Of a stretch of DNA of 37,098 nucleotides, positions 18,905-36,280 are shown piece by piece. The DNA is from Candidatus Iainarchaeum sp. (lineage in GTDB: Archaea; B1Sed10-29; WALL01). Positions within the stretch are counted from its first letter, which is position 1, and each line of letters opens with the position of its first letter. Both the position numbers and the translations under genes were made by a program. Location: the NCBI GenBank assembly GCA_021162685.1, contig JAGGYF010000003.1, forward strand, positions 1-37,098, read 5' to 3'. The notes beneath the pieces were generated by a model. The model did no database searches, had not been told where the DNA came from, and saw nothing but the letters and a program-made list of their open reading frames with translations.

Positions 18905-20131
18905 CTAACCCCACCTCTTTATAGCCATTTGCAACTCCTTGCTTGGATACTCCTTCAATGGGATACCTTGCATAACTGCATCTATTGCATCCCTAGCTGC
19001 TTTTGCTCCAGCTCTTGTTCCTTTTGGATGTCCATGTATCCCTCCACCCATCTGTATGATTACGTCATTACCAAAGATTTTATGAAGTGCAGGCACGTGG
19101 TTTGGGTTCAGACCTCCTGAGGCAACAGGCATAACTGGTTTAATGTTGTAATACTTTCGTTTACAAGCATCCACATTTTCAAGTACTTCCTTCTTCCCTT
19201 CTATCATCTTTCCTACCGCTGTCCCTACGTGTATCTGATCAACACCAATTGTTCTCGCAATGGTACATATAACTGGCATTGCAATGCCATGATACTTTAT
19301 CTTTGTGAATGCTGCATGCCCAGCCCTGTGCGCATGGATTACCCTGCTTCTTGATTTATCTCTCAAGGTCTGAAGTGCACCCCATCCCTCTGTGATTATG
19401 TCTATCATAATATATTCATTCCCGAAATCTGCAACAAGATCTTTCCTTTTTAGCATTTCCATAGTTTCTGCAGTAACGTTTATCATGTATCCCTTCCTTT
19501 CGCCTGTTTCTTTTTCAGCCTTTCTTTTGTATCTCAGCGTTGTCCTAAGTCTTTGCGAGAACCTATTAAATGATTGCGAGGAGAGGTTTTCATCATCCTT
19601 TACAATGTCGCATCCACCAACCCATGCTTCATAGGCTACTTTAGCATGGTCTTTTGATTTCAATCCAAGTTTCGGTTTTACTATTGTTCCAATCAAAGGA
19701 GTCTTCTTTCTAAAGATTTTTCTTACTCCCTTGATACCATATTTCGGACCTTTAAAGCTTGTTGCAATCCTTTTTGGTAGAATGATATCCTCCATCCTCA
19801 GATATTTTAGGTCCTTCATACCAAATATGTTTCCTGCAACACTACTTAGTATATTGGGCATGTTCCCAGGCTCAAATAACTCAATAGGATATGCAATCCG
19901 TATGTATGCGCCTCTTTTTGTTTTCTGCATCTCAAAAACAGTAGCAGCAAGTTTTTTCATATATGGCTTTACAGTAGTGAGCTCTGTCCATGTGCCTGTT
20001 GAACTTTCAGCAGCGATGGCGCCCATTGCCCTCTTCAGAGGCACGCCTTTTGATGGCTCCATATAGAACTCGCATATAAGGTCAGATTTTGATGGTTTAT
20101 ACCCAATATGGACATAATCCTCATATTTCAT
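18905..20131 (-). CDS. rbcL: Ribulose bisphosphate carboxylase large chain, archaeal form III
   Basis: A 408-residue protein. Start ATG 20131 is chosen because AGGTGA lies seven bases upstream; an ATG six codons earlier (20149) lacks this. Catalytic positions all appear intact: E42 and T47-W48 (ESSTGTW), N101, K152 and K154 (VKPK), the carbamylated lysine K178 with D180-E181 (VKDDE), H268-R269 (HAHRA), H301 (IHVGT), loop-6 K308 (VGKM), S338 (ASGG) and the GGG at 362-364. Form III enzymes carboxylate ribulose-1,5-bisphosphate made from AMP by AMP phosphorylase and ribose-1,5-bisphosphate isomerase (both absent here), feeding 3-phosphoglycerate into central metabolism rather than a Calvin cycle. 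A TATA box sits at 20174-20188 on the minus strand. Confidence 0.95.
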   Translation of the reverse strand: MKYEDYVHIGYKPSKSDLICEFYMEPSKGVPLKRAMGAIAAESSTGTWTELTTVKPYMKKLAATVFEMQKTKRGAYIRIAYPIELFEPGNMPNILSSVAGNIFGMKDLKYLRMEDIILPKRIATSFKGPKYGIKGVRKIFRKKTPLIGTIVKPKLGLKSKDHAKVAYEAWVGGCDIVKDDENLSSQSFNRFSQRLRTTLRYKRKAEKETGERKGYMINVTAETMEMLKRKDLVADFGNEYIMIDIITEGWGALQTLRDKSRSRVIHAHRAGHAAFTKIKYHGIAMPVICTIARTIGVDQIHVGTAVGKMIEGKKEVLENVDACKRKYYNIKPVMPVASGGLNPNHVPALHKIFGNDVIIQMGGGIHGHPKGTRAGAKAARDAIDAVMQGIPLKEYPSKELQMAIKRWG

Positions 20132-20173
20132 GGTTTCACCTAATTGCATTACTCAACACACTATAAAAAACAT

Positions 20174-30538: not shown

Positions 30539-30644
30539 GCGCCGTTAGTCTAGTCTGCTTCCAGCCATCCGTGGTTGGATGCCTAGAATGGTAGGACTCA
30601 GCCCTCCCAAGGCTGCGACCCGGGTTCAAATCCCGGGCGGCGCA
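30539..30644 (+). tRNA. tRNA-Gly(CCC) with D-loop intron
   Basis: Acceptor stem GCGCCGT (30539-30545) pairs with GCGGCGC (30637-30643), discriminator A. Anticodon stem CAGCC/GGCTG encloses CTCCCAA, anticodon CCC (30606-30608). T-arm CCGGG-TTCAAAT-CCCGG. The D-arm is interrupted: GTCT AGTC ... TGGTA GGAC with 33 extra bases. After removal the D-loop reads AGTCTGGTA, a normal archaeal form. No encoded CCA. It lies two bases after an upstream stop codon and is probably released from a longer transcript. Confidence 0.9.
30556..30588 (+). other. Noncanonical intron in the D-loop of tRNA-Gly
   Basis: CTAG (30550-30553) can pair with CTAG (30583-30586). This 4-bp helix is flanked by 3-base bulges TCT (30554-30556) and AAT (30587-30589). 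Cutting after the second base of each bulge removes 33 bases and leaves AGTCTGGTA. The intron folds into GC, a T-T mismatch, then TCCAGCC paired with GGTTGGA. The outer helix is weak, so this is a relaxed bulge-helix-bulge. Confidence 0.75.
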
Positions 30645-30695
30645 TTTCCCAAAATTTTTAAATATGACACCTTCCTTTTTTCATCAGGTGTTCTA

Positions 30696-31229
30696 ATGGG
30701 CATTTCAAGTTTGATTTATGATTCCTGGATGAAAGAGAAACAATACAAAAAGTATTCTGGCATTCTCAACATGCTCTCAAAAACAAACCTAAATGGAAAA
30801 ATCCTAGATGTTGGTATGGGCACAGGACTATTTGAGGATTATTTGAAAGGGAAAGGCATACATGTTGACGTAAAAGGCATAGAAATAGACAAGAAGATGA
30901 TGGATGAGGCAAGGAAGAAGGGTTACGATGTTGCACTTGGGAGCGCAGAGGAATTGCCTTTTGAAAGCAACTCATTTGATTTGGTCATATGTATAGATAC
31001 CATCCATGCTGTTAGAGATAAAGAGCGAGCGATCAGAGAGATTATGCGTGTTCTAAAGCCAAATGGATATGCACTCATTACGCACTTCTGCAACACATTC
31101 ACAAAAAAGGAGACAATTAACAAGATGGAAAAACTTACAGACGGATTGGATGTTGTTGAGAAGAAGATTGTTGGGCATCCAGATGATGAGATATCTGTAG
31201 CTTTTCTTGTGAGGAAATCAGCGCTTTAG
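30696..31229 (+). CDS. SAM-dependent methyltransferase (Methyltransf_11 type)
   Basis: A 177-residue class I methyltransferase. Motif I is ILDVGMGTGLFE (about 34-45), GIEIDKKMMDEA is the acidic motif II region, and ELPFESNSFDLVICID plus IMRVLKPNGYALITHF complete the fold. Start ATG 30696 follows AGGTG by about seven bases; the upstream frame reads through the tRNA and is rejected. The substrate is unknown; candidates are small molecules or quinone-like or lipid targets. Own promoter TTTTTAAATATG about 40 bases upstream. It ends 12 bases inside the convergent peptidase operon. Confidence 0.85.
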   Translation: MGISSLIYDSWMKEKQYKKYSGILNMLSKTNLNGKILDVGMGTGLFEDYLKGKGIHVDVKGIEIDKKMMDEARKKGYDVALGSAEELPFESNSFDLVICIDTIHAVRDKERAIREIMRVLKPNGYALITHFCNTFTKKETINKMEKLTDGLDVVEKKIVGHPDDEISVAFLVRKSAL

Positions 31230-36145: not shown

Positions 36146-36280
36146 GCTGGGGTGGCGGAACCCGGTTAACGCGGTGGCCTCGAGATGAAATTTCCTCTTT
36201 GCGGCTTCGCCGCTTTGGAGGTGGGCAACGGGAGAGCCACTGGGCTTCGGCCCGTGCAGGTTCGAATCCTGCCCCCAGCG
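36146..36280 (+). tRNA. tRNA-Ser(CGA) with canonical intron
   Basis: Acceptor GCTGGGG/CCCCAGC with discriminator G, D-stem GCG/CGC, anticodon stem GTGGC/GCCAC, anticodon CGA (36181-36183), long variable arm GGGC-TTCG-GCCC, and T-arm GCAGG-TTCGAAT-CCTGC. G73, the long variable arm and CGA identify serine (UCG codon). An intron of 50 bases lies after position 37. No encoded CCA. The next gene's ATG is 16 bases downstream. Confidence 0.92.
36185..36234 (+). other. Canonical anticodon-loop intron of tRNA-Ser
   Basis: CTCG (36179-36182) pairs with CGGG (36229-36232), and 3-base AGA bulges follow on each side (36183-36185 and 36233-36235), a textbook bulge-helix-bulge. Cutting after AG on each side joins G37 to A38 and restores loop CTCGAGA. 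The intron has an internal GCGG...CCGC hairpin. Confidence 0.88.

Follow-up and report, generated by a model that had tools for sequence, protein, structure and literature searches.

The window analysed in this study, a stretch of 37,098 nucleotides, contains a tRNA-Gly(CCC) gene with an intron in its D-loop at 30539–30644 on the plus strand, in which a mature tRNA of 73 nt and 33 extra bases add up to 106 nt. Direct reading of the sequence revealed that every arm is intact: the acceptor stem is GCGCCGT/GCGGCGC, the D-stem is GTCT/GGAC, the anticodon arm is CAGCC-CTCCCAA-GGCTG, and the T-arm is CCGGG-TTCAAAT-CCCGG, with the discriminator A at 30644. The 5' exon (30539–30555) comprises the 5' strand of the acceptor stem, positions 8-9, the 5' strand of the D-stem, and D-loop bases A14-C17, and the 3' exon (30589–30644) runs from U17a-G18-G19 onward through the anticodon CCC (30606–30608) and the T-arm to A73. 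The 33 nt between them (30556–30588) confirm the description in an earlier note on this DNA, which had reported intact tRNA arms and 33 extra bases in the D-loop. The junction 30555/30589, obtained there and here alike, is placed at site 17/17a by standard tRNA numbering, and joining the exons restores the loop AGUCUGGUA.

ARAGORN called a truncated tRNA-Gly(CCC) starting at 30577, and the Rfam tRNA model gave a sub-threshold fragment only; such partial recognition is expected because the gene is interrupted. Weak Rfam matches in the stretch (rli117, EBER1, and a tmRNA fragment) were set aside as chance or T-arm resemblance. A methyltransferase-like ORF was also called at 30579–31229 on the plus strand; its ATG sits inside the tRNA, and the ATG at 30696, 3' of the AT-rich TTTTTAAATA stretch (30655–30664), is a likelier true start.

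Of all ways to excise 33 nt without a change in the mature tRNA, one alone, with cuts after 30555 and 30588, yields the four central pairs CTAG/CTAG together with an inner helix and two 3-nt bulges, TCT and AAT. On the precursor, the exon strand of the central BHB helix is CUAG at tRNA positions 12-15 (30550–30553) and the intron strand is CUAG at 30583–30586, the predicted cuts being UC^U in the 5' bulge UCU (30554–30556) and AA^U in the 3' bulge AAU (30587–30589); the inner intron hairpin GCUUCCAGCC...GGUUGGAUGC (30557–30582) has nine pairs and one U-U mismatch. This helix with its two bulges, which the earlier note had proposed, is real: the register is unique, and only 198 of 200,000 trials with shuffled inserts (approximately 0.1%) reached a splice-correct BHB. 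The minimum free energy structure of the whole precursor (MFE -49.7 kcal/mol, z = -3.67) contains both the central helix and the inner stem, and none of 200 dinucleotide shuffles was equally good. The insert therefore has a central helix of about 4 bp with a 3-nt bulge at each junction, as known for BHB tRNA introns, and removal at the bulges leaves a normal 73-nt tRNA-Gly(CCC), as in relatives. The motif is a relaxed one (HBh') and not a strict hBHBh', since the outer helix past the bulges is not continuous; it consists of a U-G pair, a G-G mismatch, and then A-U, U-A, and U-G in the Gly intron, and of one pair only in the D-loop introns of tRNA-Lys considered below.

According to the mechanism proposed here, exon bases 12-15 (CUAG) of the precursor would pair with the CUAG near the 3' end of the intron, which would open two D-stem pairs and expose the two 3-nt bulges; EndA would cut at UC^U and AA^U, the exons would then be joined by RtcB, and the D-arm would refold after joining as GUCU-AGUCUGGUA-GGAC.

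In the genome to which the window belongs (1.11 Mb, 98% complete), a second Gly(CCC) gene was not found by an Rfam tRNA scan with hand reading; another intact gene, with this copy unspliced in RNA, is what the earlier note would have taken as the sign of a decayed copy. The Gly(CCC) genes of the relatives G009, G010, and G014 have no insert at all and share the D-arm shape of the restored window form, and that of G001 has a D-loop without an insert but a strict-BHB intron in its T-loop. The D-loop insert in Gly(CCC) was thus seen in the window's genome only, and this would suit a tRNA gene in decay that had received a random insertion, in which case GGG codons would be read by Gly(UCC); a Gly(TCC) gene is present in the genome and could in principle read GGG by wobble, so that the Gly(CCC) gene need not be essential. 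We nevertheless consider decay very improbable, as all exon stems are intact, unlike in a tRNA pseudogene, the insert carries a splice-correct BHB and belongs to a family with compensated changes, and GGG is a regularly used codon (85 of the 558 Gly codons counted over 15 window ORFs).

The family of related inserts was established in several steps of comparison. The intron-end pattern matched in 2 of 19 genomes of the phylum, namely that of the window, in Gly(CCC) and Lys(CTT), and G003, from a sister genus, in Lys(TTT); the strict pattern was absent from eight genomes reached through named records. When the three introns were aligned, 13 of 13 pairs were formed in all three, and four of the 13 were changed on both sides, two of these in the exon–intron helix, so that pairing is kept through compensatory change. 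Slid controls of the three sequences paired at 18–46%, and column shuffles reached the observed values in 16 of 500 cases, three sequences being few. A covariance model built from these three and run on 394 genomes detected seven more members in the class: Lys(TTT) of G005, G011, G012, and G013 and Lys(CTT) of G008, G011, and G012. Matches in G159 and G089, with no recognisable tRNA downstream, were treated as chance, and a minus-strand match in G003 was the hairpin read backwards.

Site 17/17a is interrupted in nine tRNA-Lys genes from seven genomes of the class, all at the same site. Across the ten class sequences, 39 of the 40 central-helix cells agree with the exon; the Lys exon UCAG is accompanied by CUGA, CUGG, UUGA, or CUGU in the intron, and the Gly exon CUAG by CUAG. 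The intron strand therefore changes to match where the exon differs between Lys and Gly. In G011, both tRNA-Lys genes found are interrupted, and in G012 an uninterrupted tRNA-Lys was not found on searching the genome (both genomes being 90–92% complete). As only interrupted Lys genes were found in these two, removal of the insert, or its tolerance, should be needed for growth there.

Retention of the 33 nt in the mature tRNA, as an enlarged D-loop, is scarcely credible for the Gly gene, since the unspliced form should compete with the normal D-arm because the central helix uses D-stem bases, and since conservation across the class extends to the positions of both bulges and to the match between helix and exon, which fits a splicing signal and not a passive loop. 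The suggestion in the earlier note of an archaeal noncanonical intron is the best explanation, supported by the BHB, the recurrence in tRNA-Lys, and the compensated pairs. We conclude that the locus is very probably a functional tRNA-Gly(CCC) gene with an archaeal BHB intron at 17/17a, which likeliest came from a tRNA-Lys D-loop intron and would be spliced by EndA and RtcB, both of which are encoded in the genome.

Concerning the origin of the intron, the window intron is identical to the Lys(TTT) intron of the sister genus (G003) in 28 of 33 positions, counted by eye on the alignment; the pair of Lys introns in that alignment is less similar. Based on this identity, the Gly intron was probably transferred from the tRNA-Lys D-loop intron that is widespread in the class, and its 3' strand would have been altered after arrival to fit the Gly exon. 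Both tRNAs have the D-loop AGUCUGG. In the window's genome, only a few bases separate the interrupted Lys(CTT) from a downstream Gly(GCC), the D-arm of which matches that of Gly(CCC); the common D-loop and this adjacency offer a possible recombination route, although the direction and route of the transfer are our inference.

Outside the class, an interruption at 17/17a occurs in tRNA-Trp(CCA) of a different archaeal family, f25 (matches in six genomes of a single genus; loci L226, L228, and L229), and apparently in tRNA-Ile(TAT) of G114 (L231), from a third group, which indicates that the site is not private to the class. A site hit so repeatedly would suit an independent origin of the Gly and Lys introns, or the descent of both from an ancient shared state, with no recent Lys-to-Gly move. 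We regard this as unlikely, because the identity of 28 of 33 to the sister-genus intron exceeds that between the two aligned Lys introns, and the Gly(CCC) genes of G001, G009, G010, and G014 are free of D-loop introns. With transfer from Lys as the preferred origin, the Lys/Gly pair presents a neat case of an intron that moved between isotypes and was re-matched to a new exon. As for the view in the earlier note that D-loop sites are uncommon, they are indeed so, but they have already been described (PMC6379350), and 17/17a itself occurs in the two unrelated archaeal groups mentioned above.

The splicing enzyme was identified by type, as the earlier note had advised. The window's genome encodes one EndA of 171 aa (locus L049, 1273-1788) and one RtcB, and a second EndA subunit was not found in searches with C- and N-terminal domain models. 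An alignment with the M. jannaschii homotetramer (PDB 1A79) spans the whole EndA and has an insertion of about one residue; the protein keeps the catalytic Y107, H117, and K148 and lacks any CSL- or ASL-like loop. A single gene of about 170–180 aa with N- and C-terminal domains, the catalytic Y/H/K, and neither CSL nor ASL corresponds to the alpha4 type, and homology with 1A79 suggests that the protein may be a homotetramer. Most of the phylum likewise has a single EndA gene of this type, G016 having two; EndA was not found in three genomes of the phylum, all of them incomplete. The nearest named relatives of the protein, at 67–79% identity, come from MAGs labelled 'Candidatus Diapherotrites archaeon', 'DPANN group archaeon', or 'archaeon', and we use DPANN archaeon near Diapherotrites as a working label for the host.

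The endonuclease of relaxed specificity that the earlier note expected is therefore not obvious, as the only EndA is a single alpha4-type protein without the loops of relaxed specificity. Relaxed motifs were reported to be removed efficiently only by (alpha-beta)2 and epsilon2 enzymes (PMC6379350). Noncanonical intron positions occur in korarchaea and in some methanogens whose enzyme consists of one protein (PMC3218864), so that the position by itself raises no conflict; the tension lies between an EndA type reported to be poor on relaxed motifs and the D-loop introns of Gly and Lys, whose outer helix is imperfect. Possibly the alpha4-type EndA accepts these introns in the context of the full tRNA, or the partial outer helix of Gly (U-G, mismatch, A-U, U-A, U-G) suffices; an additional splicing factor missing from view is also possible.

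In the literature, relaxed tRNA introns are linked to two-subunit or three-unit endonucleases with a special loop. In the class studied here, such introns persist in the D-loop of tRNA-Lys, and of the window's tRNA-Gly, while only a loopless single-subunit enzyme was found. The joint proposal that a loopless single-gene alpha4-type EndA removes relaxed D-loop BHB introns of essential tRNAs, and that these introns move between Lys and Gly with re-matching, seems to us evenly balanced between right and wrong. If it is true, relaxed specificity requires neither a second subunit nor a CSL/ASL loop.

Noncanonical BHB introns are known in Crenarchaeota/Thermoproteales, Nanoarchaeum, ARMAN, and Thaumarchaeota (PMC4090602, PMC8450103), and the BHB junction, the restored mature tRNA, and several interrupted tRNAs per genome are the same here; the present case differs in its lineage near Diapherotrites and its loopless alpha4-type EndA. 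Site 17/17a is absent from the positions given in PMC4090602 (20/21, 22/23, 25/26, 29/30, 30/31, 45/46, 53/54, 56/57, and 59/60), a list that ends in 'etc.'. Transposition of tRNA introns in Thermoproteales (Fujishima et al. 2010, cited here after PMC4033280 and PMC4090602) resembles our case in that near-identical introns occur in tRNAs of different isotype; what differs here is that the intron would have gone from Lys to Gly while keeping its D-loop site, that the lineage is a DPANN one, that the intron strand has been re-matched to the exon, and that there is only one clear D-loop case. Compared with M. jannaschii EndA, the protein studied here is collinear over its full length, but it occurs in a genome that appears from its sequence to hold several noncanonical introns, some with relaxed motifs. 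Noncanonical introns, D-loop sites, and intron transposition have all been published (PMC6379350, PMC4090602, PMC4033280, PMC8450103), and what deserves testing is the combination of relaxed D-loop introns with a loopless alpha4-type EndA. A report of noncanonical introns for this lineage was not found in the literature searched, whose coverage was incomplete, so that 17/17a may be on record elsewhere.

The tRNA inventory of the window's genome (G000), compiled from the Rfam scan and hand reading, includes six, probably seven, further noncanonical introns. These are located in Lys(CTT) at 17/17a; in the anticodon stem of Lys(TTT) at about 30/31; in the D-loop of Arg(TCT), as a 63-nt intron with a strict BHB (L040, G000:C30:9550-10000), and of Arg(CCT), as a 63-nt intron recognised by shared sequence, the 5' exon lying beyond the contig end (L042, G000:C7:1-350), both genes having an anticodon-loop intron as well; in the D-arm of a CAT tRNA of Met type at about 22/23; in the T-loop of Gln(TTG) at about 59/60; and at the T-stem/loop border of Cys(GCA). 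The outer helix is full in the Arg, Gln, and Lys(TTT) introns. Guessed registers for several anticodon-loop introns were poor and were not used. The anticodon-loop intron of Thr(CGT) (L018/L036, G000:C17:124-229) and the T-loop intron of Gln(TTG) (L035, G000:C15:68150-68600) have in common an identical 28-nt stretch, AATGAGGAACCTCCAGCGGGTTCCTCAT, which occurs nowhere else in the genome and is a second sign of intron movement.

We also observed, in G000, an intron near 30/31 of Lys(TTT) and one at 17/17a of Lys(CTT) (L029, L032), and, in G003, one at 17/17a of Lys(TTT) and apparently one near 30/31 of Lys(CTT) (L081, L249). The intron sites of the Lys isoacceptors are thus swapped between sister genera, which intron exchange or anticodon switching would explain. 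In related genera (G001 and G003; L214-L218), several tRNAs, which by eye are of Phe, Leu, Arg, Cys, and Met types, likewise carry noncanonical inserts, and intron richness therefore appears to be a family trait. An apparent tRNA-Ile(TAT) with an anticodon-loop intron was noted in G000 (L016, G000:C30:14774-14878); in most archaea, AUA is read by a modified CAT tRNA. Within the window, a second interrupted tRNA, apparently Ser(CGA), with an ordinary anticodon-loop intron lies at 36146–36280 on the plus strand, and an ORF at 18905–20149 on the minus strand resembles, by eye and from its translation only, a RuBisCO large subunit (form III-like).
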